A stretch of DNA of 64,000 nucleotides from the NCBI GenBank assembly GCA_012845835.1, contig JABAKD010000023.1, positions 17,352,751 to 17,416,750 of the forward strand. Reading direction: 5' to 3'. Below, piece by piece: positions 2,006 through 43,850 of this stretch. This DNA is from Undaria pinnatifida (lineage: Eukaryota; Sar; Phaeophyceae; Laminariales; Alariaceae). Under the pieces are notes generated by a model. It had not been told where the DNA came from. It was given only the letters and a program-made list of their open reading frames with translations, and did no database searches. Each line of letters starts with the position of its first letter. Position 1 is the stretch's first letter. The position numbers and the translations under genes were made by a program.

Positions 2006-3489
2006 TCAAGCCTGGTAGTATATGTCAACGCAACCGCTTGCTTGAAAACGACAAATTGTACTATGATCGTTATAAACCCATACCCATTCTCCAGCACTAT
2101 ACTTATGGTATCTACTCCTTAATTCTTCAAGATGTTCGTCTGCGGCAGCATGTCTAGCCTTAATCAAGCAGTCTTCCTCCGTTACCAATTCGAAAGTCTT
2201 AATTTGCCCATCACGCATAAGTCCAAAGAAATCTAGCTGGTCTTGTTTGAGACCTTGATGACCCCTAACACTGCGTCCCTCCAATGTAGTCATAGGTAAC
2301 CTGGGATATTTGCCAATATGAACTTCGCTGGAAGATAACCCAGTACCTCTACTAACGTTATTATTGTGCGCTTCTACGGTGTGCATCAACATATCGTCCC
2401 AATTTTTATTGTCATCTGCAATCAAATACGACAACATCTGACACAGGGTATGCTTTAACATTTCAACCATGCAATTAGTCTGGGGGTGATACGAAATAGT
2501 GATTTCGTCATAGCCCCTAAAGTTTTAAAAACTGCCGTACTTGCGACTTATATTATGTACCTCGGTCTGATAAAAAGGTATGAGGACATCCCAATCTTGG
2601 TATATAGTCTAATCATCTACAATCTTAGCCGCACACCCTCTTCCTGTTTTCTCCTCTTTAGTAATAACGTATTATTTTTCATATCTACTAAATAAATCAA
2701 CCAACAACAAAACGTAAGTGTTACCACGCTCCGTTTTAGGTAAGGGTCCTAATAAGTCGAAAGCAACCATCTATCCGGTACGGCTGCAAAGGGGTAAATA
2801 AGCAAACGCCATCACACTGTCTTGCGCACAGCTTTTGTGGCCTGACATGTATAGCATCTACGTATCCGCCACTTTTTACTATCCGCCATACCAATCCACC
2901 AATAGTATCTCTGCAACATTCTAAGTGTCACCTTTTCTACCAAATTAACTGCGTCCTTGTAGGTACGATCCATAACCCATGGTCTTAATGACAAAGGGAC
3001 ATAAGTTCTAACTGGCTCTTCTCCTAATAAGCGCTCATACTGTCCTGGATTCCTGCCAACACGAGGTGCAGGTTCTATGGAAAGGCGTTTTACTAGGAGT
3101 TTCTGGGAGTCAGGAAGTTCCATATCATTTCCTTGTGCTGCTAACCTTCTTACCTCCAACTTATCTACTGAATATGGCATGTCTTCATCCGATATATCTG
3201 CAACCGCCATTTCAGCACGTAAAACTTCGATAACAATGCTAGAGGTCTCGTCTTTTCGTTGTGCAGTAGCCCGATCTTTTGCAGTTTTCTCGCATAATTT
3301 TCACCAAATTCTGTTGCTTCTAAACTATCCAATCTTCTTGTGGAACCTCTTCCATATTATATTTCCACTACCAGAGTTATCCGCGACTCCAACAATACTA
3401 ATTTCTTCGATGGAATCAATCACACCTACTCGTTGCATTTTTTCCATGCCTAACAGGAGTCTTCTCTCCTTAGTCAAACGACGCGCATG
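2006..3489 (-). pseudogene. Integrase remnant of element C
   Basis: Minus-strand pieces together cover a Ty3-type integrase. 3210-2812 contains the zinc-finger region (YYWWIGM..RRCYTCQATKA). Its two Cys are present, but the paired His residues expected upstream, seen in A and B as CHS..CHLG, are replaced. Near 2755 a FDLLGPLP block carries the first catalytic Asp. 2470-2006 carries the catalytic Glu (MVEMLKHT) and the post-core region ending EWVWVYNDHSTI, matching the same stretch in A and B. The GPY/F module and chromodomain that follow in A and B are not recognisable, so the 3' end is decayed or truncated. Several frameshifts separate the pieces. The joint at 3489 is the insertion point of A. 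Confidence 0.8.
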
Positions 3490-3758
3490 TGTAAAATTAA
3501 AGGTGGGGGACACAGAGTGCCCCCCGCAGGTCTGCCTATTGAGCAGGTCCTCGGAGAGTACTCACTTTCGTTCCTTCGTAGAGATGTAGCTTTATTCGTT
3601 TCCACCAGAGCCCGGGATAGCTTCTGAGATCGGAGGCACGTGCCTCCGATGTACTTCCTAACTTTCCCGAATATAAAACGCCAACCTTATCATACGAAAC
3701 GCATCCAAATGATCTCAAATTCGGATACCTACAGGCCTTTCGAGGCCGTATCTTAACA
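3490..3758 (-). repeat. 3' LTR of element A
   Basis: 269 bp, starting TGTAAAATT (a mutated form of TGTTAAATT in the other copies) and ending CTTAACA. It contains a perfect 22-bp palindrome centred on CACGTG (3629-3650). On the minus strand it has a TTTATATTC TATA-like stretch and an AATAAA poly(A) signal about 75-80 nt further on. The first four flanking bases outside are CATG, repeated beyond the other LTR. Confidence 0.95.
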
Positions 3759-3968
3759 CTAGCCCACCCTGATGAGTCGCATATGCAGAAATATGGGAGA
3801 TTCGGGGAAACTCCGGTTCTACAAACTAGACCATGAGTCGAAGATGCGGCTCCTCAAAACCCACTCCCACACCTCTAACCGTCTGGCTATGGAGCCAGGA
3901 ACACGCGAAGAAAAGCAGTAGAGAGAAAAGCAGACCCTACAGCAAGGCAATAGTCACCCATCAAAAAC

Positions 3969-4066
3969 CTGCCGCATGCCGCCGGTGTGGCGGGGGGGGC
4001 AGAAAAGGCTCTAAAATCTGCCGCATGCCGCCGGTGTGGCGGGGGGGGCAGGAAAGGCTCTACGGT
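3969..4066. repeat. About 49-bp tandem repeat in 3' UTR of element A (2 units)
   Basis: Two units of CTGCCGCATGCCGCCGGTGT followed by a G-run and AGAAAAGGCTCTA. Element B carries three units at the matching place (31214-31357). The rest of 3759-4614 has no recognisable gene and is treated as the element's 3' non-coding region. Confidence 0.9.
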
Positions 4067-4614
4067 AAACCAACCACAGAAAATGTTCCATGGCGAGGCG
4101 AATCCTCGTCGATATGGAGGGGAGCACAGGCGTTAACACAAGGGAGAAGTCATGCGCAAAACCTCCCGCGGGCCATCGGCAAGTCGGGGGGTTAGACGAG
4201 GAAACGACGAATACCCGGGATGGAAGGTGACAACACCTACAGCCCCGCTAGGGGAGGAAGTGTTTAGACGAAGAGAACAAATCAGAAAAAATACAACGCA
4301 CAAAATATAAAAGATGACACACAGACCCGTACACTGGTCGCCCCCCGGCTCTGGGCTGAGGGGGGCGTCGGCAGGGCGAAATTGAACAATGACGAAAAGG
4401 CGACAGCCCTGCGCCTCAGATAGCGGCGTTTTACCCAAACTCTGACCCGGCACAGAGCAGGGGGTTCGGCAGAACAGAAAGAAAATCAATGGAAGCACCG
4501 CCCCAAACTCCGACGAAGACTCTCAGGACACTACGAGCAACCCAAAGACAAAGACGCAAAACTCATAACTCAAAAAAAAAGAAGAACTATCGAGGAGCGG
4601 TGGTGGCTTGGAAG

Positions 4615-5340
4615 TCAACTTGCCACAGCCGAGCTTCGAGATTCGTCTACGTTACGTTGGATTCCCCGAGGAAACGCACTGGCGATGTGAACTTGCAAGC
4701 ACCAAGAACCTCGTACGGCTCCCGTCGAAGTCGTGTAGCGCGCCGGGGGAAGAGGAAGTTTAATCGGTCCCGGGTCGTCCAGAAAGCGGACCAGGTATAC
4801 CTTGTCCTCGGTAGTGCTCGCGCTGATTTTTCCAAGCCACCATAACCCATCGTCTCCCTTGTACCAAAAGTGAGCTCCCTTAGGGAGTACTGTGTCGTGG
4901 TAGCGACGGAGCCAATCGGCGCGGGGAACACAGGCGTAGCCCGACGCTAGGAAACGTTCCCCGTTGTTGCGGGAGAGCTCACGCTGTGCCGCTCCGATCC
5001 GCATTCGGCGGTAGAGGCGGGTGGTTTGGCAGTACTGGTCCGGGGTTCTGGCCCAATAACGCAAGATGTGGGAGCGGGAGAGGTGAAGGTCCGTTTCCCG
5101 CTCCCAGGACGGTTCGGAGAGTCCCGCCCAATGCGTCTTGTATAGCACCGCGATGACGCCACCTCGCCCCCGTACCGACTGATGACCAGTGATCTGCTCC
5201 ACCTCCAGCCGTTGGAGAGGAGTCGAAACGTCGTCTTGAGTGACGTGATACGGCGGGGACTTCTTGGAAAACTTGTTGAGCACGTACTGTGTCAGCCCCG
5301 CCGGTAGGTATTGGGCATGTCCCCGCTGTCGTGGGGGTTG
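4615..5340 (-). pseudogene. Chromodomain plus Tudor-like tail of element A integrase
   Basis: This is the C-terminal part of the pol product. Taking the open frame ending at 4615, a chromodomain lies at about 5214-5049 (LEVEQITGH..., ALYKTHWAGL-type strand, SWERETDL, then HLSRSHILRYW). The VxxIxxHR.....YLVKWxG..xxxxSWExxxxL chromodomain pattern is clear. After a basic, helical spacer comes a second compact module at about 4896-4704: WYKGDDGLWWLGKI followed by DKVYLVRFLDD. This resembles Tudor/Agenet-type folds that read modified histones. Chromodomains on Ty3-type integrases direct insertion into marked chromatin. A second reader after the chromodomain is unusual. A frameshift near 5330 separates this region from the integrase GPY/F module. 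Confidence 0.8.
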
Positions 5341-6924
5341 GCACAGGGTTTGCAGCGCTCGATGGCCACACGCCGACGAGCGTCCGAACCGGGCAGGTCG
5401 GAAGCGAGATCCAAATAGAGGAGGTTGCTCCCGAGCGGCGAGCCGTCCGGGTTCTCGGCGGCGGAGCACGGACCGACGGCCAGGACCTTGTATGGGCCCG
5501 TCCAGTTAAGCGCGAGTTTGGCCTTGAGTACCTTGGCGTCGGTGTTCGCCTTCACACCCTGGCGGATGTTAGAGGCATAATTTTATACCCATGCCCAACC
5601 ACCCACAGTGAAGTTAGGTGCTGGACGCAGCGCGTCGGCGAGGGCGGAGTTTCTGCGGTTAACGCGGGAAACGGTGAGGGCGTGGTGTGCGCGGACAATG
5701 TCATTCGCGCGCTTTTGCTGGTCGGTGGCCAAATCGCAATAGGCCAGGTGGTCACGGGCCAGACTCTGGTGTCCCACGACACCTGTGGGGTCGAAAACCG
5801 TCAGGGGGAGCTGTGGGAGTCTGCCCATGTGGACCTCGTTGGGCGCCAAACCCGTCCCCGCGCTGACAGAGTTGTTGTAAGCGAATTCTACGTGGGGCAG
5901 ATGCAAGTCCCAATCGTCTTGTCGCTCGTTGATGACCATAGCCAGCATTTGTGCCATAGTGTGACTTAACCGCTCAACGCCCCCGTTACAGTTGGGATGA
6001 TAGGAGCTTGTAGCAAGCTTGTGTACACCCAACAGCTGATATACAGCTTGCGAAAGCTTGGAGCACAACTGCAGTCCGTTGTCCGAGAGTATGGTGCGCG
6101 GGCACCCCCACAAGGGGATGTATTGGTTCACCAGGATATTGGCTGTACCCTCCGCGGTGAACTCACCGCAGTGACGGGGAACATGTCGGCCCGACGACTG
6201 AAGCAATCGGTGAACAGCAGGTTGTAGGTGTTGTGTGACCGGAAGGGGGCCGAAGTAGTCAACACTGACGGCGATAACTGGACCTTCCGGCAGAGGCATT
6301 GTGATGATGGGCCAGCGGACAGTCAGCCGTGGGGTTTTCCGCGCTTGGCACTTCAAGCAGTGGCGAAGCCACCACCGGGTGCACACACTCATGCCAATGC
6401 ACCAATAAGAACGCCCCAGCATGCGCAACCTGCGCGTGGTGCCAAGGTGACAAGAGGCCGTCGAGTGACAAGCTTGCATGATCCAAGGGCGCATGAGCAG
6501 GGGAACGTAGATGCGAACTGGCTCGTCGTTTAGAAAGCAAGCAGCTCGCCCCACAGAGTTCGGTTTGTCAGAGCTTGTTGGTGGCAGTGTCGGGTTACGG
6601 ACGAGTAGGATAATGTCGTCGTCGGTTGTATGTAGTCGACCCTTATCCGCCAACTCCTTGGTCTGAGAGGGAGGGACGCTTGTGCGAGAGGTAGCACGCT
6701 AAAACGTCGGGCGGCAGGACCGATGGCCGGCCGATAGAAACGTAACGCATCATGGCGTGGCACGTCGGCTCAGCGTGCTGCTCTCGCTTCCAATCGTCAT
6801 GTGAATAACGCGCGACGGAATTAGCGAAACGCAATTCAGCAGCGTTGCCGAGGGCGTCCGGCCTTATATATGCGGTCGGCGTGCCACCAGGAGAAGGCGT
6901 GAGCCGTAAGAGAAGAGTTCCCAT
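5341..6924 (-). pseudogene. Integrase of element A (HHCC finger, DDE core, GPY/F module)
   Basis: Ty3-type integrase on the minus strand. From about 6924 there is an N-terminal extension (ALGNAAELRFANS, then YVSIGRP). A zinc finger follows with CHSTASCHLG and HCLKCQARK. The catalytic core shows VSVDYFGPLPV (first Asp), TILSDNGLQLC (second Asp) and HPNCNGGVERLSHTM (Glu). Two compensating indels around 6150-6230 put about 20 residues between the first and second Asp out of frame compared with element B. After the core, the GPY/F module (LNWTGPYKVL) lies near 5500 in the frame covering 5555-5292. A frame change at 6653-6643 and another near 5330 show the gene is not intact. It would catalyse insertion of the cDNA; the 4-bp duplications flanking A and B are its expected footprint. 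Confidence 0.9.
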
Positions 6925-7095
6925 ATAGGCTCTGCGTGATCACGGTCTGACGGTAGTGGCACCGTGCGGACCGGCGAGTCGACAAGAGCAGGGGTCGCGG
7001 CGGCGACGGGGTCGGCTGCGGCCGTGGAACTCGCGACGGGGTTGTACTTCGTCCGGAAGATGGCCGACGGGCCCCGCCGGGCCCGAATCCATAAT

Positions 7096-8036
7096 CTACA
7101 GCGGGGGTGCATCACCCGTTGTTGTCGCTGTTCGTCGGCGCGTCGTCGACGACGGAGGGGCTGGAATGCCAAGAAAGGCGGAGACGGACACAGTCGAACC
7201 GGCCGTCGCGGCGGGGGCCGTCTCCTTTAAATAAGGCTGGGATAGATAAGTCGGCTGTGCGATGGGCGTCGCTGCAGCCAGGGCTTCTGCGGAGGCCGTG
7301 CCGCCCTCGATGGGTGTGGCAAAAACAGAAGCGAAAACGGTGTCAGCGGCCTGTGAAATCGACCCGCGGCCGGTACAGCCTTCGGATGTGGCGACGGAGG
7401 CAGAAACACGAGCGACGAATCTCCCCGGGGAATCAGAAAGGCCGTCAATCCTTATACGTGGCTCGTGTGTGCGAAAATCGTGAAACGCGGTAGAGGTGAT
7501 AGGGAGCCCACCCAAGGCAGCATGTTCAGTGCGGGGCACGAGCCCACCCAAGACAGTGCTTTCGGCGAGGGGTTCGAGTCCACCCAAAGCAGTGCTTTCG
7601 GTGTGGGGCACGAGCCCACCCAAGACAGTGCTTTTGGCGAGGGGCGCGAGTCCACCTGAACCGACTCCTGGGATCGGCGAGGAGGGAGCGCGCAGCCCGC
7701 GGGTCCGTAGGAGGTGGGTACCACTATCTCCAACGGGGTTGGGGCTTGTCAACCCCACGAGGTTGAATTAATTCAAGCCACGGCGGTCGTATTCCGTAGC
7801 AGTCTCTGGAAAACGGGTCGGAAAAATCGGCGATGCCCTTGGCGCTGCCTTTGCGGTACTCGAGTGTGCAATCGAACGCGGTGACGAACTCAAGCTACCG
7901 CTGGACTTGTGCATTGAGGGTCCCCACTTTGCCAGTGCTCTCCTGTGTCTTGTGGCCGGAGGATATGCGGAACTTTGTTCTCCACAGAACCCACGGAGGT
8001 GTTTGGTAGCTCAAACAATGCTGCTGGGGGTCAAAT
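7096..8036 (-). other. Low-complexity linker region of element A between NADAR-like domain and integrase
   Basis: On the minus strand 7758-7096 is an open frame rich in Pro, Ala, Ser, Thr and Gly with no recognised fold. It includes a run of GGL-P-TEST-type repeats. In a normal Ty3 element this interval would hold protease, RT and RNase H. I find no YxDD-type box and no RNase H motifs here or in the matching part of B. The short stretch just upstream (minus strand, about 8170-8037: GTVTLDDVSFTMKNAY) is conserved in both copies. It could belong to a retropepsin-like fold, but that is a weak guess. Confidence 0.55.
7502..7660. repeat. 39-bp tandem repeat in element A linker (about 4 units)
   Basis: Four imperfect units of the type GAGCCCACCCAAGACAGTGC plus TTTCGGCGAGGGGC. 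Because 39 is a multiple of three they give a 13-residue protein repeat (GGLVPRTEHAALG type). The same array is in B at about 34830-34985. Confidence 0.85.
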
Positions 8037-8364
8037 CTAGATAGGAGTCCAGTGCCTCTCCGAGTCGAGCGTTGCTCGATTGATATACGCGTTTTTCATA
8101 GTGAACGAAACGTCGTCCAGCGTCACAGTACCCTTGACGAAACAGGGGCCGTATTCTGACAGCGCAAAGTCAGGGGCGACGCCAGAAGCTATCTCCAAAC
8201 CTTGACGGCTTTTTATTGGCCAACGCGCCCGAGAAATAGGTCGGATGGCCGAAGGGGAAGCTTTGCGAGCGCTGGCCGCTGTGAACGGTCCGGTTGCGGC
8301 GCGGACGAGATTTCTTGGTTGTTGCACTCGCAGTGCAGGTGCGGAACCGACTAGGGGAGGCCGG

Positions 8365-8846
8365 GTGCGCCGACCCCGTCTCATTGTCGCAAATAGCTTC
8401 GCGAACGGCAGAAAGTGCCTCACCGAGCAAGTTTTTCCTCTCCCCTGGCATGGGTTGTTGGCCCTGAGACCATCCGCCCGGAGGCCAATGCCTCACACTG
8501 GGTTCAGAGGGCTGGATTCAGCCAGAAGCTTGTTGTCAGAGCTCAAAAGGTGATTTTCTTATGGCTGGATTCTGCGTGAATTTGGCGTAAGTGCCAGGTG
8601 ACACGGCGTTTTGCTTCTCCTTGTCCCCAACAGCGGAGTCAAAGTTGCGCACGCCTCGACCGATGCGTTTGCGTTGCTTGGACGAGGCGACGACATAATG
8701 AGCCCCACTGCTCGATGATCTTGCGAAAACTTGGTATTTGCGGCCATCATGTACTTCTCCGCGCAAGAATATGGTACGTCGTCCACGGCAAACGACGAAG
8801 GGGACCACGGTGGAAAATAGGATGGGGGTTGCCAGAATAACACCAC
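8365..8846 (-). pseudogene. NADAR/YbiA-like (DUF1768) domain in element A
   Basis: Minus-strand frames read KVVLFWQPPSYFPPW, then SSFAVDDVPYSCAEKYMMA, RAVGLIMSSPRPS, KRIGRGVRNFDSAV, TYAKFTQNPAIRK, ESSPLNPVWGIGLR and KNLLGEALSAVREA in this order. The order and wording match the NADAR superfamily (E. coli YbiA and relatives): N-terminal FW..S.FsnF, the Y.c.EqymM helix, GR.V..FD, KF.QN..l, SP.D.iWGIG and NlLG.aLm.vR. Known NADAR proteins cleave N-glycosidic bonds, acting on riboflavin intermediates or on ADP-ribosylated guanine in DNA. At least three frameshifts (near 8750-8800, 8560 and 8440) interrupt it, and the Trp expected after FD is absent, so this copy cannot be active as it stands. The domain sits between gag and integrase, where RT would normally be. 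Confidence 0.8.
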
Positions 8847-8884
8847 TTTGGCTGTGGAGTATTCGAGAGAAGGGTCAAAAGCCG

Positions 8885-9480
8885 TGTTAGAATTTGGGCC
8901 TACAATGTCCCCGTTCAGGAACACCAGGCCTCGGGAGCACGACGTGAATCCGAACCCGTGGTATCTCGCCTCGGGTCTTTCTTCGCTCGTTGGCGGAAAA
9001 GCGCGAGAATACGCTCTACCTGCGCCCGAAAAATGGCAAAAACCGACGGTGCAAACCCGTCGGTAGCCTCGTTGGACATTTGTGGGTCTGCAATGTCCCC
9101 TTCTGGGAACACCAGTCCTCGGCTATTTGGGCCTGTAATGTCCCCTTCCGGGAGCACCAGGCCTCGGGAGCAACATGCGAGTCCGAACCTGGGGTTTCTC
9201 GCCTCGGGTCCTCCTCACTCGCTGGCGGAAACTCGTAAGAAGCCGCCCTCATTACACCCGAAAAAGAGTCCAACACCGACGGTGCCAACCCGTCGGTAGC
9301 CTCGTTGGGCATTTGGGTTTAAAATGTCCCCGTCTGGGAACACCAGTCCTCGGCTCTTTGGGCCTGTAGTGTCCCCCTCAGGAACACCAGGCCTCGGGAG
9401 CACAACGCGAGTCCGAACCCACGGTTTCTCGCGTCGTGGCCTCTTCGTTTTTTGGCGTATAATCGCAAGAAAACTGCTCT
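8885..9480. repeat. 234-bp tandem repeat region of element A (about 2.5 units)
   Basis: Blocks starting TGTCCCCxTxCGGGAxCACC and running through CTCGGGAGCA, GTCCGAACC, GGTTTCTCGC and CCGACGGTGC recur with a period of about 234 bp. A shorter sub-repeat (TGTCCCC...GGGAACACCAG) lies inside each unit. On the minus strand they yield RGLVFPEGDI-type peptide repeats in the same frame as the start of the NADAR-like domain. Element B has the same array at 36215-36810. Confidence 0.85.
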
Positions 9481-10849
9481 AACTGCGCCCGAAGGGGCAG
9501 GGGCTCTGAGCTATTTCTGCTTGACGAGAGGCGCGATTCTTCCGTAAATTTACGGGAATAGCGTCCAGCTGATCAGCATGGAGGCCGTGGAGTCACCACT
9601 GGCCCGTTGCGCAGTATCGGATCTTCTTCCTGTGTCACTGGGGCAGACGTAGCCTGAAACACGAGGGTTAGCGTATTAAAAGACGAAGCAGGGTCCGTAG
9701 ACCCTGTGGGCGTCTTCTGGAGCGGGGCTCGGGCAAAGCAATAATATTTTTACCCGAGGAGGCTCTCTTCCGTTATGTCTCTTGGAGAAGGGAGACGAGG
9801 TAGCTAATCTTGTCGACTCCTCCTTGATGGAAAGAAAGGACAGAGCGCCCGCTGTTATCGCGAGCAAACACCGGATCGAGCCTCGCAAAAGATCTCGGTG
9901 TTTTAGTGTTGGCCTTCCCACACCTCAAATCGACCGCCACCTCGTGGTCAGAAAAAATGTTTCGAGGGTCGACCGTCCCACACCTCAAACCGACCGCCAC
10001 CGCCTGGTCAGGGAGAGGGGGGGATGAACACATACGCGTAAAAAGGCGACGCGCCGTCGCCGCAGCTATATTGTTGCGCGGCGCGTGCCTGGGGGGGAAT
10101 CGCGCAAAGCGCAGGCTCCCGTGCCATGGTTGATGGGGGCGGCGTTTGGAGCGCGTACCCCCATTGCTGAGTTTATGCCGCGGCTGTGGGGTACCGCGCC
10201 GGAAGCGCGGTTCCCGTTGCCGAACTCAGACCATGGCCGAGGGGAACGTCGCTGAAAGCGCGCGTTCTCGCCGTCAAAAAAGAAAGAAAAGAAAAAAAAA
10301 TAACCTGGCTGGAGGAAACCACGCTTGAAGCGCTAGTTTGCTAGTTTCCGCCGCCGGTACTACGCCGTAAGAATCGTCCGCAGACGGCGTAGGAGCCCTT
10401 GGGCTCTTGACAGGCAATCTGTGCTGCGTTACTGGACAGGCTAGCAACAGAACACGAGCATCTTCTGAAACCAAAATAGGTACCCCCCGACAGTGTTGTC
10501 GACGGTGCCGTACCGCCGTCGAGCTGTCGATTGCCGTTACGGAAAAACCTTGGCGCCCAAATATATTTTCGCCCGGGTTGTGGGCGGCTCCAAAGCGCAT
10601 TCGAGGAGCAGGAGCGGGGGCAGAAGAGGCGGGCGAGCGCAGGATACCACCATGGTGATCCGACGTGTATGTGGTATCGTTGTGACAGTTTACCTGGCCC
10701 TGATCCTGAAAGATGGCGACGATGTTTCTTGTGGTTGTTCGGGCGAGAAGATTGGTCGTCTCGGCGGTAGCAGACCATGCGTGTGTGTCAACGTCGGTGA
10801 GCGTCATCGTCGCCAAGTTGGCCAAGTTCAGGGTTCAAGCAGCCACTCG
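9481..10849 (-). other. Unassigned minus-strand region of element A between gag and the repeat region
   Basis: Broken minus-strand frames are conserved with element B. They include AVGLRCGTVDPRN (about 9990-9950), HHGGILRSPASSAPAPAPRM (about 10660-10600) and ATAETTNLLARTTT (about 10770-10730). They carry no domain I recognise. The A-rich stretch near 10270-10310 has unequal lengths in A and B. This may be the gag-pol junction. Confidence 0.4.
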
Positions 10850-12915
10850 CACTAATGAAAGGATGCCTACAATGCTTGATTGAATGGTTGTCTTCGTGGC
10901 AGTTGAGGGAAAGCCCCCGGTTTTCTCGGAGGGCATTCGCGTGAGGTGAAAGGAGGCCGCTCCAAAGGGGAGGGTCGTCTGTCTTAAACGAGGCCTTAAC
11001 GGCAAAAACTTCTGCATAATGATGCTCTTCTAGTGGCGAGCAGTTTGATGTGTGGTCAAGCCAAGGGTCAGATGAATCATCGATGGGCGCAACAGTTGAA
11101 TGATGGCTCGATCCCGTCTGCCACGAAAGCGACTGGGGCGGCTCTCGGCCCTGGCCGCGCCCATGATCGGCGGGCCGGGGCCCCGACGGGGCGGATCACC
11201 GCGCTCCCGTCGAGGAAACATGGAGAGAAAAAAAATGTTTCGCCGTTGACGGCAAGTGTCTTGTTTGTCACTAAAAGCCCGCCACATAGCATTCAACGAG
11301 GCGCATGGCCGCGGGTCCGTCGTCTTCGAACCAGGGTACAAAGCAGGCAGGAGAGCCGGAATTTGCTCATTCGCCGCCACCCGAACCACCTCCAACACCA
11401 CATCCGTCCCCGGAGACAAAACACGCTCACTCCCCGTAGCGGTCGGCATAAGTACGCGAAACTCCCGACTGAAATCAGAAAAAGGCATGCCGTTACACAT
11501 TCCAAAAGTATGCAACTTAGTGTAGCCCTCCTTCGTGTTAACCCCGTCGAAATGCGTGATCAGCAGACGCAATAGAAGGGTGAAAGCCTCAGGCCCAGAT
11601 GCTCCTTCTGCCATGGCTCTTGACATTTTTGCCTGCTACCACGACCACCTCGCTGTGGTTCGTGCTCGAGGACGAAGACGAGCGGGAGAAGGTTGACGAG
11701 CCGTCCCACGCTGAACGTCCTTTCGCGCCATTCCTCCGCCGTCCGTTGCCTCCGCCCGAGCTGCGGCAAACTGCCCCGGTTGTTGGACCAAAGTTGCCCC
11801 CTCGGCAGCGCCCTCAGGCACACCAGCATCCGATGCGCTGTTACCCCCGCGGCGGTGGTGGTGGTCGCCACCCTCACCATTTTTGCCGCCACCCCGATGG
11901 TTGCGGTCCTCACGGTTGCGACTGTCGCTGCGTCGCTTTTTCCCCTGGTTTCGTTCTGCCAACTCTTCCTCCGGGGTTCGGCCAAAAGACAGGGTCGGGG
12001 TTCTCGTCATGGGCTATCAGCAGGGCCTTGACGAGGGCAAGGGTCGGGGCGGCTCTCGTCTGTCTAGCATAGGGCGTACAATCCACGCGAGCCCAGGCCG
12101 CTTCCACTGAGGACGTCCGCTTGCCGCGACGCTGGCCACTCTGACGGGAGGAGGGCGCAGGCCGTTTCCACCACCGCGGTTGCCAACGCTGAGGAGAAGT
12201 CTACCCTCGGTGCAGACGCCATGCACACGACGATGCCCTTGAAGAAGGCGTCGTTCTCGGGTCGTGGTCGCTGAGATGCGACACCCTGCGGGCGCGACGA
12301 AGGCAAGGGGGCCGCGGTAGCTCCCGCCGCAGCCGCCGCAACTGATTGGGCGAGGGCTTGTTGCGCCCTCTTCGCTACCAGGGACGCCTCCCGCGCAGCG
12401 GTCTTTGCCTGCTCGATATCTTCGTCAAACTGACGTCGGCGTGCTATCGTCTGGTTGGCGTCGTCGAGCGCCCGCTGGGCCTGCGCCGCCGCGTACGCCA
12501 AGTCCAAGGGGGCGGCATGTGCATCCCGATCCCGAGAGCTCTGGGGGTGGCGCTCTGTCGAGCGCGGAGAGCCCAGGTGGCGGCGGTGGTGCCCTGTCGA
12601 GCGCGGGGGGGGGGCAGCTGGTGGCGCTCCCCCGGGGCTGGCGAGAGCTGGCGTCGAGACGCCCCCGAGTCCGGTGGGGGTTGGTCCGTCTTCTTTTCAG
12701 CGCGAACCGGCGAATCGACCCTCTTAGTTGGTGGGAACGGGTGGAGGTATGGTGCTCCGTTATCTGTCTCGTCACCGGAACCCGCCACTGGTGGTTCCCC
12801 CCGTCTCGAGTCGCGGCATCTCGAGCGAGCTCTCCCTGTCTCGCGGGCATCCAGGTTGGGGTGCGTGGAAGACCTCAGCCTGCCCCGAGTAGCACGCTTC
12901 CTCACTGGTAGACAT
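10850..12915 (-). pseudogene. gag: gag of element A
   Basis: The start chosen is the ATG at 12915 (MSTSEEACY), conserved in B at 40230. The N-terminal part is Pro/Ser-rich. Next comes an Ala-rich helical segment (ALDDANQTIARRRQF, then AREASLVAKRAQQALAQ; about 12470-12330), then a charged Arg/His/Gly stretch (about 12000-11850). The capsid-like region runs from about 11600 to 11250: LLLRLLITHFDG, GMPFSDFSREFRVLM, VVLEVVRVAANEQ, and LNAMWRAFSD. The PFSDF...LM block is shared with C gag. Near 10907-10863 a Cys/His cluster (CHEDNH..KHCRHPF) gives a CX4HX4C spacing that could be a diverged zinc knuckle. Frameshifts separate these parts. Gag would form the particle and package RNA. Confidence 0.8.
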
Positions 12916-13324
12916 GTTGCTTGTTGTCTGTATGGAGGGCAGCGGAAGGAGGGGGTGTGGGGGAAGGTGGCGGGATGGGAACGACGCGTACAAGCTATGG
13001 AGGCAGATGTATTGTTGTGGTGTCGCTGCTGCGAGTAGCGGTATATCTGTGTTTCAGCAAACATCAAGACATGGGCCTCGACTCCGTCCAGCATCAGTGA
13101 TGGTAGCAGCCACGCCAACTAGCCGTATAAAAGGAGTACAGCAGTAAGAAGGTACCAACCATCAAAACCGCAACATAAGAGCAACGCCCAGTCTGACCGT
13201 AGGGTATATGGGTAACGCCCGCACGAACCGCAGTACAAACAGCCAAAATGGACAGCACTGACCCTAACCGCAGTGCAGGGGGTGCAACACAGTATAGGTA
13301 CGTCTGCAGCCATCGCACTTAGAC

Positions 13325-14220
13325 AGGCATCATTTACCCTAGGCGGGGGGGTAGCACAGGGAAGCGTCGCCCAAAACGCTAACGCTCATCGTACCGAAAC
13401 AGGCAGCATTTAACCTAGGTGCAGTGTGGGGGTTATCACAATAAAGGTTCCCCCAACACGCCGACGCTCATCGCACCAAACCAGGCAGCGTTTAACCTAG
13501 GTGTATCGTAGGGGGTAGCACAGTGAAGGGTCGCCCAACACGCCGACACTCATCGTGCCAAAACAGCCAGCATTTGACCTAGGTGTAGTGTAGGGGTGGA
13601 AGCACATTGAAAGGTCGCCCAACACGCTGATACTCATCGCACCAAAACAGGCAGCATTTAACCTAGGTGTAGTGTAGGGGGGTAGCACAGTGAAGGTCAC
13701 CCAACACGCCGACACTCATCGCACCAAAACAGGCAGCATCTAACCTAGGTGTAGTGTAGGGGTGGAAGCACAGTGAAAGGTCGCTCAACACGCTGACACT
13801 CATCGCACCAAAACAGGCCGTGTTTAACCTAGGTGTAGTGTAGGGGGTAGCACAGTGAAGGGTCGCCCAACACGCCGACACTCATCGCACCAAAACAGGC
13901 AGCATTTAACCTAGGTGTAGTGTAGGGGGGTAGCACAGTGAAAGGTCACCCAACACGCTGACACTCATCGCACTAAAACAAGCAGCATTTAACCTAGGTG
14001 TAGTGTAGGGGGTAGCGCAGTGAAGGGTCGCCCAACAACAAAACGGGCAGCATCCGCCCCAACGGTGGTGTAGGGGGGGGGGTAGCACAGTGAAGGATCG
14101 CGCCGCCAACCGTATAAAAACGGGCAGCATCTGCCCCCACAGTAGTGTAGGGGGGGGTAGGACAGTAAAGGTTCGCACACCAACGGTATAAAAACGGGCA
14201 GTATAACCCCCCGAACAAGG
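13325..14220. repeat. About 83-bp tandem array in the 5' leader of element A (9 full and about 3 degenerate units)
   Basis: Each unit contains CAAAACAGGCAGCATTTA, then ACCTAGGTGTAGTGTAGGGG, AGCACAGTGAA, CGCCCAACACGC and GACACTCATCG. CCTAGG occurs nine times between 13340 and 13995. Three weaker units with CGTATAAAAACGGGCAG follow to 14220. The array lies between primer site and gag. Minus-strand frames give a 28-residue repeat (MSVSVLGDLSLCFHPYTTPR type), but unit length varies, so it is probably not coding. Element B has 16 units. Confidence 0.95.
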
Positions 14221-15103
14221 TAGTTTCCCCCGACCGCACTAAAGGGGAACGGTCGCGCCTACAGTAGTGCTGATTGCTGCAGTATCACTGCTGTGTTAAC
14301 AGGTAACGACAATTTCAACCGCACCAAGATGGGGAGTTTCAGCGTTCACTAGGTTCAAGTTCTGGTCACGGGGGGGCCAGACGAAACAAAAACCTCTCGA
14401 ATCGAACTTGCAAGGAGCACTCGCACAGCAGTGGAGGGTGTCAGAGCTGCGGTGCTGTAACTGTGGACACTGGGGCAGTGAAGGGTCGAGCTATGTGGTG
14501 GATGGGCAGGAGCAAAGTAGGCGACTTGGATGCTGTACAGTGACTTATACAGCAGAGAATCCGGCGGTATATGGCAGGCATTGACAGCGAGCCCACTGTG
14601 CTGCACTGTAGTTGGTACCTCTGCAAAAATGATGGTGGTTGAAGCTACGCGACGCACAGCAGTAGTGGAACGCTGTTGATCGAGAAAAATCGGAGAGGGG
14701 TTCGAGGTGCGTCAAATTAGTAGCAGTACTAATTTCGGTAGAAAGGGAGCAGCTGTTTGTTCGACGCACAAGACGGATCGACGTATGTACTGAAACCCAT
14801 ACGATAACGCGTCTACTGGAAAATTCTTTGAACGAAAAAGCCTAAACATTTCACGAGCACCGCCTGTTCCTTCCCAGGTAGGATCACAAGGAAGGAGCCC
14901 CGACATGAGCTTCTAGAGCACGGTGCCCGTAGTCCAAGGGGGTCCCGCGAAGGGTGGTCTGGCTCCGACAGCAAAGGTGTATGCTGGTCGATGGGCTCTC
15001 TCAGCCAGCGAAGGTCATTCGAAGGATTGATTCCAGTATGCTTGTTCGTGGCGTGTCGTGCATATATGCCTCAGAGCCCCAAAGCGCCTAAAAAAAGTAC
15101 AAG
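14221..15103. other. Rest of the 5' leader of element A; no gene recognised
   Basis: Sequence conserved with B (about 42530-43270). It contains an open plus-strand stretch near 14400-14585 including a CCNCGHWGSEGSS peptide, which is antisense to the element. No domain could be assigned. Confidence 0.4.
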
Positions 15104-15469
15104 TTAATGGCCGATCTTGGGGCTTGTGCTGGCAACTCGCGGAGATGTGCTGTGCAACATGCTGGCAGAGCGCCGAGCAAACAAGTCTGATGGGTGGGGC
15201 TCGGGCAGTTTCACTGCGGAGTGGTCTATGACCAGCTGGCAGTGAACTGATGCGACCAAAGGCCGGGACGAGAAGTGTGCTCCGAAGAGCAGCGTCGTCC
15301 GCACGTACTCGGAAGGTATCCTCTGTGTGGTGCGTGCCCAGCAACCTACAGGAGGGACCAAAATCCGAGAAGAGGAGTGTGCTCCGCAGAGCAGTGTCGT
15401 CCGCACGTACTTGGAAGGTGTCGTCCGTGTTGTACGTGCCCGGCGACCAACAGAAGGGGCCCCTGCCAT
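15104..15469 (-). CDS. Leader ORF of element A with two internal repeats (unknown function)
   Basis: A 121-codon minus-strand frame from an ATG at 15469, only about 180 nt inside the 5' LTR. It contains two copies of a roughly 34-residue unit (ARTTRTTPSKYVRTTLLCGA and ARTTQRIPSEYVRTTLLFGA, each followed by H-SSR..V). A Ser/Pro/His-rich tail ends TSPRVASTSPKIGH. The corresponding ATG and frame are kept in B (43671-43273, 132 codons), apart from different ends. Survival of the frame in both copies, in contrast to gag and pol, suggests either real coding or chance retention of a tandem repeat. No family was recognised. It could be a leader peptide, or simply the translation of a repeated structural RNA. 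Confidence 0.4.
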   Translation of the reverse strand: MAGAPSVGRRARTTRTTPSKYVRTTLLCGAHSSSRILVPPVGCWARTTQRIPSEYVRTTLLFGAHFSSRPLVASVHCQLVIDHSAVKLPEPHPSDLFARRSASMLHSTSPRVASTSPKIGH

Positions 15470-15631
15470 CTCACTGCTGTTGTGGTCGCCGTTGTAGGAG
15501 GAAGGGCGCTCCCTCCATTGAGAAGCCACCCGAGAAGAAACAGGGGTTGTGGGCTCGATGGAAAGCAGAAGCAAAATCGCTCGTACGAAAAAAAATCGGA
15601 GAGATTGGAGGAAAGCTGCCACAATAGCATA

Positions 15632-15649
15632 TCAAGCTCGTCGACGCCA
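15632..15649 (-). promoter_or_regulatory. Putative tRNA primer-binding site of element A
   Basis: Two nucleotides inside the 5' LTR, the minus strand reads TGGCGTCGACGAGCTTGA. The leading TGG (pairing with the CCA tail of a tRNA) and position are typical of LTR-retrotransposon primer sites. It is identical in B (43831-43848). The tRNA was not identified. Confidence 0.7.
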
Positions 15650-15651
15650 CA

Positions 15652-15919
15652 TGTTAAATTAAAGGTGGGGGACACAGAGTGCCCCCTGCAGGTCTGCCAA
15701 TTGAGCAGTTCCTCGGAGAGTACTCACTTTCGTTCCTTCGTAGAGATGTAGCTTTATTCGTTTCCACCAGAGCCCGGGATAGCTTCTGAGATCGGAAGCA
15801 CGTGCCTCCGATCTACTTTCTAACTTTCCCGAGTATAAACGCCAACCTTATCATACGAAACCCATCCAAATGATCTCAAATTCGGATACCTACAGGCCTT
15901 TCGAGGCCGTATCTTAACA
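15652..15919 (-). repeat. 5' LTR of element A
   Basis: 268 bp, TGTTAAATT...CTTAACA, with 5-bp terminal inverted repeats TGTTA/TAACA. The E-box palindrome is present with one mismatch (15790-15813). It differs from the 3' LTR at about nine sites plus one 1-bp indel (about 3.4%). Flanked outside by CATG. Confidence 0.95.
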
Positions 15920-17991
15920 CATGCAATACTTTCCCTGGTTCTCACTGACCACCAACTACTTGCGACGGTTGTACCAGAGGGGCATCGTCCGGCACTGCAA
16001 CACTACTACTTGACTGATCTCCTACCGACTGTTTGCTCGCGCGTTCGTTCTGTATGACTTGCGACGGGTGCTGCAATAGAGGTATCACCTTTCGTCTGAA
16101 AAGGTTTCTGAATGACGGGGGATCCTTAACCCAAAATCGTCGAAAATAGACAAAAAAAAATTGCGTGATTTTTTCGTTGTGTATCTAGTAATAGGCCATG
16201 AGATTTTTCATCCGGTAGCGGTTATATTTTCCTACAAATCGGTTTTTGGAGAGGTCTTAAGCTCCCAGGTTGGGGAAAACTTGGAACCAAAGTGGTGCAC
16301 CTCTATCGTAGCACGCGTCTTGCCATGCTCTAACAGATTTTCCGTTGGTGGTAAGAAGAGCTGTCCTCAATTCTCTCTCCCCCACCGTAAAATCAAGTCG
16401 GGGTCCAGATATTTCAGCCCAACCCGTTGGCTCGGCTATCTGCATAGAATGCACGTCACTCGCATCGATCAAATAGACACCGATATCTGTAGGGTCGAAC
16501 AAGCGGGCATCAGGGTGATTATCAGCTTCCGTGGCCGGCAATGGCAAACGCGGTAACAAATCTGCATTACCATTGGCCTTCTCTGGTCGATACTCTAACG
16601 TATAAGAATGTGCACGAAGAATATCATATCTTCGTTGGAGTCGGTTAAAATTCGTCGACAAGCTCTCCAAGTTTTTCAACGTTTGGTGGTCACTCACTAC
16701 AACAAAAGGGATACCATAAAACAACTGTATGCTTTTCTTGACCGCCCACACAATAGCGGCACACTCTAATTCTGTTGCGCTCCAGTTTCGTTCAGTTGGC
16801 ATTGTCGTTCTGCTCAGGGAACCTAAAGGTCTGATAGAATCATCCAATTGTTTCTGTCAATTACTGCTCCCAACCCATCAACGGATGCGTCTGTAATTAA
16901 ACGGGAAGGTCGGTCACCTGACATAGCTGATTTAAAGTCTGGGAAAGCTTAAACGTCTGGGCTCGACAGCCGTTTCATCAAGACTTGAACGATCTCAACG
17001 TGCTCGGTGGTGAACACAAATTTAACGTTATTTTTCAAGAGGTTATTGAGAGGTCGTGTTAAAGTTGCCATTTGTGGTAAAAACTTCCTGTAGTACGAAA
17101 GTGCTCCTAATAATGATCGCAACAGGCTGACGTTCGTTCGGATGAGCAACTTAGTTGAGCAACTTAGTCATAGCCTCTACTTTCCCCGGATTTGGTTCCA
17201 TTCCTTTCGCTGTGACACGATGACCTAGAGATTTGATAACTTTAACGCCTAGATATGCTTTATTTGGCGCCAATTCGAGGTCAAATTTCGTTAATCGTTA
17301 ACAAAATTGGTTCAGATTCTGCACATGTTCTGCTCCACTAGCTGAATAACAGACAATATCATCAATGGATAGCCGAACGCGTTTTAGACTTCACAGACTC
17401 GAGACATGGTGGCTTGAAACCATCCTGGACTGGAAGGTAAACCCATCGGCATTATCGTCCATTCATAAATGCTTTGTTGAGTACACGTTGCTGTCAAAGC
17501 GATAGAATCTTCGTGTATGGAACGCTGGAAAAACCCTTAACCAGATCCGTGCCACTGAAAACGTCTGCGCCGCCAAAGTCTGAAAAAAATATAATCTAGT
17601 CTATTGTCGGTAGGGGCATAACCGGTAGAATAGACTGTTCATTTAGCCTTTTGTAGCTACAAGTTAGCCTGATACGGCCATCAGCGTTAGCAATTACAAC
17701 CAAGGGCGAACACCAATTCGAATACGATCGGCGCAAATTTCCTGCCAAAAGTAATTTGTCTATTTCTGTTTGTACTTTCGCTGCTAACACTGGTGAGTGA
17801 CGATAAGGTCGCTGCTTCACCGGTTGTCCATGTTTCTGCAGTATAATGCGAAACGGATGAAAGGTGACGTGCCCTAAATCAGCGGTATGCTTGGAGAAAC
17901 GATGTGCGTATTTGCATAGTAAGTTTCCAAGATCGTCGATGTCCTTCTCTGTCCATAGATAGGCTCTCTTCAAAGCCAAAGTGGATTCCAC
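15920..17991 (-). pseudogene. Reverse transcriptase-RNase H of element C
   Basis: On the minus strand 17991-17596 carries the N-terminal RT part (ETDLGHVTFHP-like region, VKQRPYRHSPVLAAKVQTEI, NWCSPLVVIANADGRIRLT, SYKRLNEQS). The active-site box reads SIDDIVCYSAS at about 17369-17340, matching the xxDD motif. 17149-16949 is the thumb and connection (LLGALSYYRKFLPQMATL). 16847-16257 is RNase H: ATELECAAIVWAVKK, VVVSDHQTLKNL, and ANGNADLLPRLP. Several stops and frameshifts occur between 17590 and 17150. 16256-15920 is a Ser/Gln/Val-rich linker whose frame runs into the insertion site of element A. RT and RNase H would copy and degrade element RNA. This is the only Ty3-type RT in the window. Confidence 0.9.
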
Positions 17992-17999
17992 GCAAGTAC

Positions 18000-20279
18000 G
18001 CGGGTGCCATATTCCATAACCGTATAACAGCTGCTCTCTGTGAGGGATTTAAACTAGTCAGTATGGTCTGTGGTGGTTAATCGCCAGGTACTACAGAGCT
18101 AGGACCACTGCTTCTTACAACAGCACTTACTTGCTCAACTTTGGTTGGTAAAATTTCAGCGTCTCCCGATTGACTCTGTACTAATTCTGAACCGCCTACT
18201 CGTAATTTATATGGCTATGCACAAGATAGAAAGCTTTCCGCATTCAACCTTTTCAATGGGGTTTCTGACACACCCGCCTCAACGATATCCTCTTGTGGGA
18301 ACCAACCCTCACCGAAACGAATATAGTAAGAGCCTGCGGGGGCTGCTGTTCCATCCGGTTTTGTAGAAGCAACTCTCACCCAAGACATAGCGTTAGGCAG
18401 CCTGTGCTTACTACTGGCGACGCGCACAACTACTCGACTGCCGTTCTTTTCGTCAATGGTGCCAACGGCATTGTGTGTCCAATTGTTAAGGCGGTGATCA
18501 CTTGCTACTGATCCACCATCTTTCCCAACAAAAGTGACTAGCGTTTCGGAAGAATTGAAATATCGGTATGTTCTTGTAGGAAAAAATGACCAGCTTTCTC
18601 GACATAACAAAACCGATGTAGACATGGCTTTGTCTGGTACTTTGTAAGCATGGACAACTTGACAAACAGTAAGTGACCGCAGTACTCCACGGGATTTTGT
18701 CTCAGAACTACCTAGCTGTACTTTGAGTTGGACGTGATTAGAGGTAACTATAGGTATACCATGGAAGCCACCTCAGGTTTTCTGTTGAAGTTTTGTCAAA
18801 TCAGCATGAGATACAGCACAACAAGCTAACATACGCGACCACACCTTCTCTTGAATAAACGATGCTGGCCTTCCGTGGCTAACAAAGCTGTGCAGAGTTG
18901 CATTCTCAGCGCTTTGGTTCCCGCGAACAGTTGCGCTCCTGTCGTATGACGCTGTCTATCGAGCACCAACCGCTCTCGTGAATTCCAATAAATAGTCAGC
19001 GCGCTCTCCTTGGCACAAACGTACACGTTTTGGAGGGAACACGGAGACAGAGAGATCAGAAGTACCTTCCCTCGCGGAAGAGTCAAGAGCGTGGATACTG
19101 ACATGGAGTCTGTCAAGATTTGAGAAACTCCCGCCACTAGTACTATTTTTGGTATTACTGTCTTCTGGTGCTGTATCCTAGTCAGCATATTAGAAAGCCG
19201 AGCTCCTGTTAGATGAATTAACAGTGAGTGGTACTGTCCCCTTGTGGGGCTAGCGTGAACTCATCCAGACTTTCATCTACTGTACTCAACCTGTGTTGAG
19301 TGTGTAAAACACGGTCTCTACTTGACCCAAGATCAAAGCTACTCAACCTGTTCACATTCTGTACTTCGTGGTCAACGTGCGACCCAAGATTAAAGCTATC
19401 CTTTTCGCTTTGAAGATCCTGTAATTCATGGTCTACTTGCGACCTAAGATCACACTTGCCCGAAGAACCGACACACTTTCCTCTTCATGTGCCAGTGGAA
19501 TACGCGAAGAACTGGGGGTGCCTTTGCCGGGGCAACACCAAATACTCCTATGTTTCGTTGACCTTGTTCCTGACACGGCGCGTGCGCTCGAAATTTCTAG
19601 AGCATGCGTCCACTTCGGTTGATCAGCCGAAGGGGGTGCGCAAACCCGTACAGTAGTTTGCTTGCTCACTGATATACTCGGTACGTCCTTACCACTTCGA
19701 AATCTTGCAACAATCCAGGACCTATTTTGATCGTTACTGCGTTCCGGACGGCCAAATCGCGTCGCATGATTACAAACAACATGATTTGTGCAGAGAAGAT
19801 ACGTTAAATTTACGCTCGAAGGCTGGTCTGGGATAATTACTTCCGTCCCTACCTGGAAGGCGAAAAGAAACTCTACGACTACTCTTACCGTTCTCAGATA
19901 TATATCATCCTGCCTCTTGGGGCCAATGGCACAACGTTTGTTGCCAGCGGCGCCAACGTGCTTCCACTTCCTGTGGTGATCCATCCCTAACCGAGGGATG
20001 TATCAGACCCGGACGGTTTAAGAATTTGGAGGGGCAATCTCTTGCAAAGTGGTGCTCGGCGAAACAAGTCATGCAGCGGGGTCCAAACGATTTACGACCA
20101 GCATCTCGCTGCTCCTTAGAATCGAATGAAATTTAAAACGGGAAGTCATTTGCGTTGTTAGATCTACCCGATGTGGTATTTCCCTACTGTAAATACGTGG
20201 CCGAAATCATCGTGGTCCCCAAAATAATCGTCCGACGCCACCGACATCACCCCGGCGTGCTGCCTACCACGGTATCCCG
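18000..20279 (-). other. Uncharacterised interval of element C between gag and RT
   Basis: Minus-strand open pieces at 18625-18215, 19188-18826 and 19984-19433 are separated by stops. Their composition is protein-like in places (SRVVVRVASSKHRLPNAMSW, FQVGTEVIIPDQPSSVNL), but I do not recognise a protease active site (D[ST]G). In Ty3 elements the aspartic protease would lie here. Confidence 0.4.
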
Positions 20280-23195
20280 TATACTGATGAGAGTAAGACC
20301 GTCAAACCCCTAGACCTCGAGGGGAAACGGACGCCATCGTACTGCTGAGCGATAGGTCCTCTAAAACACGCATCAACTCGTCATAGCTATCAAACGGCAG
20401 GGCTCTCAAATTACTTTTGGCAAATATCTGAGCACCAAGACTGGCGTACTGATAGTCGATACATGGCTTCACCGCTATCTGAATAGCCCCCTAATCAGAA
20501 GCTACCTGTCCGAAACACCTTACAAGTGAAACCAACAAACGCATCTGACCCCAGAAATCAGAAAACGGGGTTCCAACTTCACTTGTGAGATATTGCAACG
20601 TTTGCATGATGTGGGCAGGAGTAACATTGCTCAAACCTCGGCATAATGCGCGGATGACATGCTCCAACACAACTGGACCCGGTTGCCTGGCATCCAGCAT
20701 ACGGCCGTCTTGGGCAAACGAGTCATCGACCATGCCTTTTACTTTAGAGGCCTGCGAGTAAGTGCTGCGGACAGCAAGGGAAACATGGCGTTTCCGACAG
20801 GTTTCCCAACCCCGTACTCAATTGGTAGGGTGCGTTTTCTCACAAGCTACCCTCATAATGGCGACAAATTCTCTAACCCGCAGAGATAAATTGAACTAAA
20901 TCTGCCGCATTATGATTTGTATCAAACGGGAGTGACACCACGGGCATCATCACTTGCGTGTTCATGTTGGCATATGCTTTAGCTACAGAGGCTAGCTGGT
21001 CGGAGTTGGAAGCATTTCGGTAAGGCGGGGAGGGGTTCTTCTCCTGCTTGATAGCGGGAGTAGCAGCAAGAGGAGAAAGGTCGGTTTCACGTTTAACGTC
21101 CGGGGCAGATTGTGCATCTGCACCAACAGGCGCAGCCTCCGCGGGCACAGAAACCGATGCAGGGGCTAGTCCCCCGTCAACACCAAATCCAGAACAATTC
21201 TCCTCTACTGTAATACAATCTTTTTGATCGACACCAATACGTCCTACCCTACGTCCTACCCTACCCACCGCACTGTCATCCCCCAAAACAGCATTCTCCA
21301 AAACGGAATACCCGCACCTTTTCCGGCCACGCCCCTGGAAAGCCTGCTGGCGGTTGACAGCACCACCTACATCAATGCCCGACCCGCACCGGCTTAGAGG
21401 GCCTTTCGGCTTAAGTAATCCACCTTGAGGCAGAGGTTCCGGCGGAGGCAACAGCGGGAGCTGAGTAGACGGCTCCGGCGCCGGAGCCACTGGAACAGGC
21501 GGGGGCGGAAGCGGCATAGCTGGCGGAGCCTGGACAACAGGCGGCTGTGGGAACAACTGCCGCATGTGCCCATCCACCAGTAAAACGATGGACTCATCGC
21601 ACATACCCGGAGAAGCATCTTTAACCTTGTTAAACAAGGCCAACCGCTGCATCAGAGCGTCATCCGGTGCGGCTGAAGGCGCTCCCGGACCCGCTGCCAC
21701 AGGAATAGCGGCAGCGGTCGCAGTGATCGCGGTAGCCGCAGAGGCTGCCCACGCAGAGGCTGCCTCCGCAGCGGCCTGGTCGCTGGCAGATTTCTCCGCC
21801 AACTTGCGACGGGCTGTAGGACTAGAGAGCAGAGGTTTCTGCTCTTGGACCTACAGGTCCAGTACTGCAGCCTGAGCGGCAGCGCGTTGCACAGCGTCAC
21901 GCTTGCTGCGCAGGCGCCGCAACTCACCCTCCGCACTCTATTCGAGAGCGCGCGCGTGAACCACATCCGCCGTACTGGCAGTTGCGGACCCCGAGACCCG
22001 CTTGCCGGCGCCAGTCGGACGCCCAGCCGCCGCCGGAAGAGTCAGAATAGAATCCGAAGGCGGTGGCTTATCGGTTACCGCCCCGAATGACTCACCCTGT
22101 ACAACAGGATCGGGGGGCGGAGGGTCATCGGAATACGGAAGGGCAGCGTAAGGAGTTTGCAATCCTAAGGCTACACGCTGGTCAGGCAACGAGGAATAAT
22201 CGGGAGACATCGTGTCGGAGTCGTCACGAGATAAAGAAAGACCTATATTGGCACTGCTTTCCTCTTTTAGTTCCTGGTTCTTTTTGTATTCTGATTGTCG
22301 TTCATCGTGCAACTTGCGGTCAAAACGTTCGTCCGATGATCCGTCAACAGCAGTGGAGCGCACAGGTTCGACCGCGTGGCCCCCACGGCGCGCAAGGTCG
22401 GCCACGCGGACTTTCCTCCCACCCGTCTCGGCGACCGTGGACGCGGTCAAATTAACATCAGCTAGAAAGAGTCCTACGGCTAAATTTTTCTGCTCGAGGG
22501 AGAGTCCCGTCATGCCGTGTGAAAGGGCGGCATCATGCTCAGCACGAGACTCTCTAAACAAAAATTTGGCATGGTCGTCCCCACCACTCAGCCGGCCGCC
22601 AGTAGGCTGGACGGCGGAACAGCGGCGGTGCCCTTCCCCGGTCCCGCCGGTTTGAAAACCGGTGGGACAGCCGGCGCTCCCGCTGACGCAGTGGAGACCA
22701 CATCTTGGTAAGAGCGACTACGCGGGCGGGGAATAGCGACAGCCGGGGAAAGAACTAGAGGGGAAGGGACGGGACACGATTGCCCGAGGGAGGAGACGGA
22801 ATGTTTTTCTCGGTAAGCACGCAAATAGATGAGGTACCCTGCGGGAGCCGCGGTGTATCACCGGCTCTACGCTGACGCCCCAGGGAACGCGGGCTACTGC
22901 GTGCCCTTACCCGGCCCTCCCCTCCGGTGCCGCGACCGCTCGTACCGCGACGAGCGATCTCAGCAAGGGAGAGACGAGAAACGCCCCTAGTGGACGGCCC
23001 CTCTCGGGGTGATTCAGCGGGACCGCTAGATCGGTCCCCAGGCAAGTCGGGAGCCGAAAACGACCCCATAGCACGCGCTTGGGCGCGAGTGTGTCCCAAC
23101 TTGAGCGCGAGGGTGTGCTGGACACCCTTTCTCATCTCCTGACTCAACACGCTCTTGATGGACGCGGGCGAGCCAGGAGGAGACTGAAACGACAT
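20280..23195 (-). pseudogene. gag: gag of element C
   Basis: The start chosen is the ATG at 23195 (MSFQSPPGSPASIKSVL), followed by an Arg/Ser/Gly-rich N-terminal region. Further pieces lie in shifted frames: 22561-21938 (LSLEQKNLAVGLFLADVNL, acidic and Pro-rich), 21802-20873 (Ala- then Pro-rich linker, ending SLPFDTNHNAADLVQFISAG), and 20733-20491 with the capsid-like block LEHVIRALCRG and GTPFSDFWGQMRLLVSLV. Downstream, YASLGAQIFAKSNL and FDSYDELMRVLEDL complete a helical capsid end similar to the PFSDF block and the LNAMWRAFSD end of A gag. Premature stops at 21803-21940 and near 20490 confirm decay. Length and layout fit a large algal-type gag with disordered N-terminal half. Confidence 0.7.
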
Positions 23196-30776: not shown

Positions 30777-31004
30777 TGTTAAATTAAAGGTGGGGGACAC
30801 AGAGTGCCCCCTGCAGGTCTGCCAATTGAGCAGGTCCTCAGAGAGTACTCACTTTCGTTCCTTCGTAGAGATGTAGCTTTATTCGTTTCCACCAGAGCCC
30901 GGGATAACTTTCCCGAATATAAAACGCCAACCTTATCATACGAAACCCATCCAAATGATCTCAAATTCAGATACTTACAGGCCTTTCGAGGCCGTATCTT
31001 AACA
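30777..31004 (-). repeat. 3' LTR of element B with a 41-bp deletion
   Basis: 228 bp, TGTTAAATT...CTTAACA. Relative to the other three LTRs it lacks 41 bp between GCCCGGGATA and ACTTTCCCGA. This segment is exactly where the CACGTG-centred palindrome lies. Confidence 0.95.
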
Positions 31005-43848: not shown

Positions 43849-43850
43849 CA

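Follow-up and report, generated by a model that had tools for sequence, protein, structure and literature searches.

A NADAR domain under purifying selection in the Pol polyprotein of Undaria pinnatifida retrotransposons, and its dead copies in a family lacking reverse transcriptase

Retrotransposons of the brown alga Undaria pinnatifida carry a NADAR domain, a type of enzyme that takes ADP-ribose off guanine in DNA and RNA (PMC11543638, PMC11125620, PMC11833690; papers are cited here for individual passages, and what is said of them extends to those passages). In the 64,000-nucleotide stretch analyzed here (assembly GCA_012845835.1, contig JABAKD010000023.1, positions 17,352,751 to 17,416,750; henceforth the window), two minus-strand long terminal repeat (LTR) retrotransposons, elements A and B, contain such a domain, which is genuine and well beyond chance, but dead. 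Both elements are dead members of a family that lacks protease and reverse transcriptase (RT) and whose relatives in this genome include Ty3/Gypsy-type elements with a NADAR domain. Within the uninterrupted elements, the NADAR domain is under purifying selection, with constraint close to that on the protease, in contrast to the neighboring linker. Capture of a NADAR domain by a brown-algal retrotransposon has already been published as a kind (2025, PMC12477816), as an initial reading of the window from its letters alone (the sequence-only reading) had cautioned might be the case; new are the second, larger genome, the evidence for selection, an in-frame UGA codon, and a non-autonomous family of large size. 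Inside Pol, selection has kept an ADP-ribose eraser domain of bacterial type until synonymous sites between families were saturated, and a role for nucleic-acid ADP-ribosylation in algae becomes testable through one purified domain.

Dead NADAR domains in a protease- and RT-less family

The domain of element A occupies positions 8380–8858 of the minus strand and matches an uninterrupted NADAR domain at 8858–8430 (E 2e-38) and 8748–8380 (E 4e-22). All six motifs by which the sequence-only reading had recognized it lie on this strand between 8858 and 8380, spread over two frames rather than three or one. FWQPPSYFPPW and PYSCAEKYMMA share a first frame, KRIGRGVRNFD and KFTQNPAIRK a second, after which the domain returns to the first frame for SPLNPV*GIGL and to the second for KNLLGEAL; the fifth motif, given as SPLNPVWGIGL, was located, with a stop where W had been written. 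Three single-base frame breaks relative to an uninterrupted copy fit these switches, and the position of the catalytic lysine reads N. A comparison with the Pfam profile PF08719 (curated cut-off 35.1 bits), which the sequence-only reading had suggested, gave a divided outcome: uninterrupted copies score far above the cut-off (171.8–176.7 bits), whereas the three window pieces, scanned singly, fall below it at 26.7 bits (E 7.4e-6), 30.0 bits (E 7.6e-7), and no match. The domain of element B (35705–36185, minus strand), located by its match to the uninterrupted domain, is also broken. Its breaks fall at two of the three places seen in A, one matching A in length and the other spanning 2 bases against 1 in A, so the NADAR of both elements was probably already broken in their common source.

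Compared with an autonomous copy, A and B both lack a segment of approximately 2.1 kb that includes the protease motif and RT; in A the deletion junction lies at 8091–8099 (minus strand). The two elements align collinearly across this junction, with 93.5% identity over 6.7 kb. A 401-base junction query was matched from end to end, with one match a single base short, at all 40 places scored out of 915 first-look candidates, A and B included; the deleted elements constitute a multiplied non-autonomous family. Relative to the autonomous copy this family is a mosaic, with LTR plus leader, integrase, and tail at 91–94% identity, the middle at 75–84%, and the leader repeats at 85–88% in their longest matches. 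When six further copies were followed past NADAR, the junction was present in two (L227 and L229) and not in the other four. The copy with the L227 junction, L059, has a NADAR match that is almost complete and free of stops; either the deletion therefore preceded the loss of NADAR, or this copy recombined. L059/L227 (G000:C33:9543459-9544739) lacks RT; upstream of the junction it is closer to an autonomous copy (92%), downstream of it to A, a pattern that would fit a possible recombinant.

Uninterrupted elements and selection on NADAR

A genome scan with the NADAR profile, in which open frames were measured from stop to stop, yielded 150 scored matches out of 1454 first-look candidates, and all 150 exceeded the Pfam cut-off; nine lie in 2473-codon frames and five in 2371-codon frames. 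The notion that NADAR is confined to the two window copies was rejected, as the domain is present in other element copies. Three families, F1, F2, and F3, were distinguished, the last resting on two loci; their NADAR domains are 45–48% identical. In copies of all three, NADAR lies upstream of protease and RT, which bears out the earlier proposal that the domain is part of an element family and not a trapped host gene.

The two F1 copies measured are autonomous and 15.5 and 15.7 kb long, with target-site duplications (TSDs) ctac and tata; the LTR, 267 bp in an autonomous copy, has TG..CA ends. Their order is gag, UGA, pol linker, NADAR, an ALLDTG motif, RT, RNase H, H2C2, integrase, and a weak chromodomain. 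Gag comprises 1019 codons without a Pfam match, and NADAR corresponds to pol residues 408–557. The protease is represented by ALLDTG alone, which we take to be the protease motif, with no Pfam match, and the chromodomain match is weak and below cut-off (E 0.057). Pfam matches in the autonomous copy follow the order RVT_1, RT_RNaseH, H2C2, rve, a Ty3/Gypsy order that recurs without protease and RT in A and B. At a homologous place before pol, a UGA lies in frame in F1 and F2 copies: of 24 rows inspected, 23 have it (19 of 20 distinct loci), and the one row without it also lacks the surrounding motif. In copy L015, an open frame of 724 codons extends as far as the UGA. At the gag-pol boundary of element B (37750–38000), the frame reads NRQ where autonomous copies read N-UGA-Q, and the UGA stop therefore seems lost in the non-autonomous family.

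Selection was assessed by the ratio of nonsynonymous to synonymous differences per site (pN/pS). In F1 this ratio is 0.39 for NADAR, 0.40 for protease, 0.32 for RT, 0.50 for the protease-RT linker, and 0.71 for the N-terminal linker, and in F2 it is 0.47 for NADAR, 0.45 for protease, 0.53 for RT, and 0.82 for the N-terminal linker, each value summing all pairs among 4–7 copies; the pairs are not independent, and some of the copies are partly degraded. Between F1 and F2, where synonymous sites are saturated (pS 0.77–0.78), identity is 48% for NADAR, 53% for protease, and 77% for RT, and the N-terminal linkers have no significant similarity (best E 0.049). Long-run constraint on NADAR is therefore similar to that on the protease and lower than that on RT. 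The catalytic residues E, K, and E were mapped through structure 8bau, with E43 and E125 as named in PMC11543638 and the lysine (K50) by count on the alignment; among 58 extracted rows, of which five repeat a locus, 54, 53, and 56, respectively, retain them. The last-strand residue is E, as in the YbiA class, and not D or H.

Role and origin of the domain

Because NADAR is translated within Pol, removal of adducts from element RNA or cDNA appears its likeliest role. We tentatively propose, as a serious possibility that falls short of a probable one, that the polyprotein-borne domain is an N-glycosidase removing ADP-ribose from guanine of element RNA or cDNA, that ribosomes read through the UGA, and that the deleted family is mobilized in trans. 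Readthrough would extend a minority of Gag into Pol, and NADAR would enter the particle together with protease, RT, and integrase, there stripping ADP-ribose from guanines of element RNA or cDNA; left in place, adducts of this kind, from whichever source, would impede reverse transcription or integration. Every NADAR tested in two papers acts on ADP-ribosyl-guanine, one NADAR on RNA (PMC11125620, PMC11833690). The deleted family would move with proteins supplied in trans, leaving its own NADAR free to decay, and this mobilization is suggested by A and B sharing the deletion and two of three frame breaks yet having separate TSDs.

Several observations weigh against this proposal, besides the limits of the pN/pS values given above. 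Constraint on NADAR does not identify its substrate, and some copies, A among them, have lost catalytic residues. The sequence context of the UGA is unlike between families, and the RNA behind it shows no excess folding stability in the two copies folded (z -1.00 and +0.32). In L014, a copy of F2, the longest open frame of gag is a different one that stops about 120 bases ahead of the UGA, so that F1 shows the gag-UGA-pol layout most clearly. As candidate writers of the mark, DarT gave 0 matches and PARP one short match in genome searches confined to these two families and to genes not split by introns; neither search turned up a convincing host enzyme for the mark.

Among other explanations, an appreciable minority chance attaches to NADAR acting on small ADP-ribose or riboflavin-type compounds, such as RNA end-repair products or a signaling nucleotide, and thereby aiding the element indirectly. 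Escherichia coli YbiA acts on riboflavin intermediates (PMC11543638), and a virus survey favors soluble ADP-ribose derivatives for phage NADARs, yet it argues for macromolecular targets in those eukaryotic RNA viruses whose polyproteins contain NADAR (PMC9503650). Fusion within Pol moreover groups the domain with nucleic-acid enzymes, and the Phytophthora enzyme, at 58 bits, resembles the element NADAR more closely in sequence than E. coli YbiA does at 25 bits, a contrast qualified by the activity of YbiA in vitro on ADP-ribosyl-guanine too (PMC11125620). Counter-defense, in which the host would block element RNA or cDNA with an ADP-ribose mark that the element removes, is unlikely, although element architecture, the constraint on NADAR, and an analogy to DarT-NADAR toxin-antitoxin systems and to phage defense (PMC11543638) would suit it. 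The DarT and PARP results count against it, and brown-algal nucleic-acid ADP-ribosylation is absent from the literature passages cited, no search aimed at it having been made. Reversal of host ADP-ribosylation by the element NADAR is accordingly offered here as a hypothesis.

Slightly less likely again is that NADAR owes its retention to a structural or nucleic-acid-binding function and that its catalysis is incidental: a domain directly ahead of the protease could be a folding or packaging module, but the active-site E, K, and E are kept across three families at only 45–48% NADAR identity. That a host or bacterial gene is a mere passenger trapped in two copies is hardly credible; nothing beyond the presence of the domain speaks for it, whereas the same placement in three families, purifying selection, and 150 of 150 scored matches over cut-off, 14 in the long frames, speak against it. 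Brown algae might use ADP-ribosylation of guanines in the RNA or cDNA of retroelements as genome defense, with elements bearing a particle-borne eraser and the stress-responsive Ectocarpus NADAR gene Esi0017_0056 as a sister or domesticated form, a picture we consider improbable. The stress-responsive Ectocarpus NADAR protein has been described (PMC7922944), and the stem “transpos” is absent from the text of that paper.

The closest bacterial NADARs suggest a bacterial donor. Among the best 80 of 528 bacterial loci, those nearest to the F1 domain come from Nannocystis, other Myxococcota, and Planctomycetota (56–60% identity), though on bacterial contigs, and the top matches of F2 and F3 include these groups as well. 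None of the best 80 of 93 IMG/VR NADAR loci has a tblastn match to element RT, integrase, or protease within the flanking sequence covered. A tree of 67 rows, combining 52 bacterial or viral sequences (160 thinned to 115, of which 52 were used) with 15 of the 58 element rows, did not join F1 with F2 and F3, and a single clade was not rejected (p-AU 0.281). The donor is no more than suggested, because the tree took in bacterial, viral, and element sequences, with other eukaryotic NADARs left out. A TIGR02464 scan for a separate host NADAR gene scored 150 of 1384 candidates; by eye most places coincide with the PF08719 list and at least seven fall outside it, both lists being dominated by element-like matches.

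The nearest known system is the Gypsy-12_Ec32-type Gypsy lineage of Ectocarpus, which likewise bears NADAR in the N-terminal part of Pol with mostly bacterial best matches (PMC12477816), although in Undaria the C-terminal chromodomain match is below cut-off. The Undaria elements reside in another, larger genome (511 Mb versus 200 Mb), the lineages being compared by description only, and the passages of that account make no mention of an in-frame UGA, a selection test, or an RT-less NADAR family. The same paper describes a NADAR captured in Tx1 LINE ORF1 of Crassostrea gigas, also a retrotransposon, but a LINE with a divergent domain. No further report of NADAR in transposons appeared among the matches listed from open-licence PMC literature. 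NADARs of nidoviruses, hepe-like viruses, and picornaviruses also lie within a replicase polyprotein, but in invertebrate positive-strand RNA viruses (PMC9503650). The NADAR of Phytophthora nicotianae, assumed here to be 8bau, has counterparts of its E43, E125, and, by count, K50 in the element domain; its structure is solved and it is active on ADP-ribosyl-guanine (PMC11543638), but it is a stand-alone protein (PMC11125620), unlike the Pol-embedded domain.

Structure of A and B and other features of the window

Element A (3490–15919, minus strand) is a complete non-autonomous Ty3/Gypsy-type retrotransposon with TSD catg. Its LTR pair and TSD confirm the assignment to LTR retrotransposons made from sequence alone, and similarity matches bear out the placement of NADAR between gag and integrase. 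The following coordinates are likewise on the minus strand. The 5' LTR (15652–15919) is 94% identical to the 267-bp LTR of the autonomous copy and 96.6% identical, gaps left out, to the 3' LTR (3490–3758), which was identified by the same two comparisons. Gag (10550–13053) is broken, its tblastn pieces lying in three frames with 6 stops inside them. It is followed by the fast-evolving N-terminal Pol linker (9038–10474) and, past NADAR and the junction, by an RNase H remnant (7576–8090), an integrase region (5592–6626) at 87% to the autonomous copy, and the C-terminal Pol tail (4615–5588), in which the autonomous copy has its weak chromodomain match. Element B (30777–44119, TSD taag), a second complete copy of the same family recognized from LTR matches (44119–43851 and 31004–30777) and flanks, retains integrase and C-terminal tail at 31907–33927. 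Kimura two-parameter divergence between paired LTRs is 0.034 in A, 0.027 in B (with 41 gapped columns), and 0 in both autonomous copies measured. A tandem array with a unit of approximately 82–84 bp lies between the 5' LTR and gag of A (13346–14037), and likewise occurs in B and in autonomous F1 copies.

The insertion of A probably split an older Gypsy element on the same strand (15919–20733 and 2081–3156), with RT at 17.8–16.4 kb and integrase at 3.2–2.1 kb. A Copia-type element with zinc knuckle, integrase, and RVT_2 occupies 45597–50044 on the plus strand. Genome-wide, EsV-1-7 repeats, which have proliferated in brown algae (PMC12477816), gave 150 of 150 scored matches over cut-off (2162 candidates), with 0 in 14 control genomes. 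Open frames of 351 codons without a Pfam match lie at 54873–55928 (plus strand) and 59584–60639 (minus strand), each overlapped by a 277-codon frame on the opposite strand at mirrored positions, and the pair is probably an inverted duplicate.
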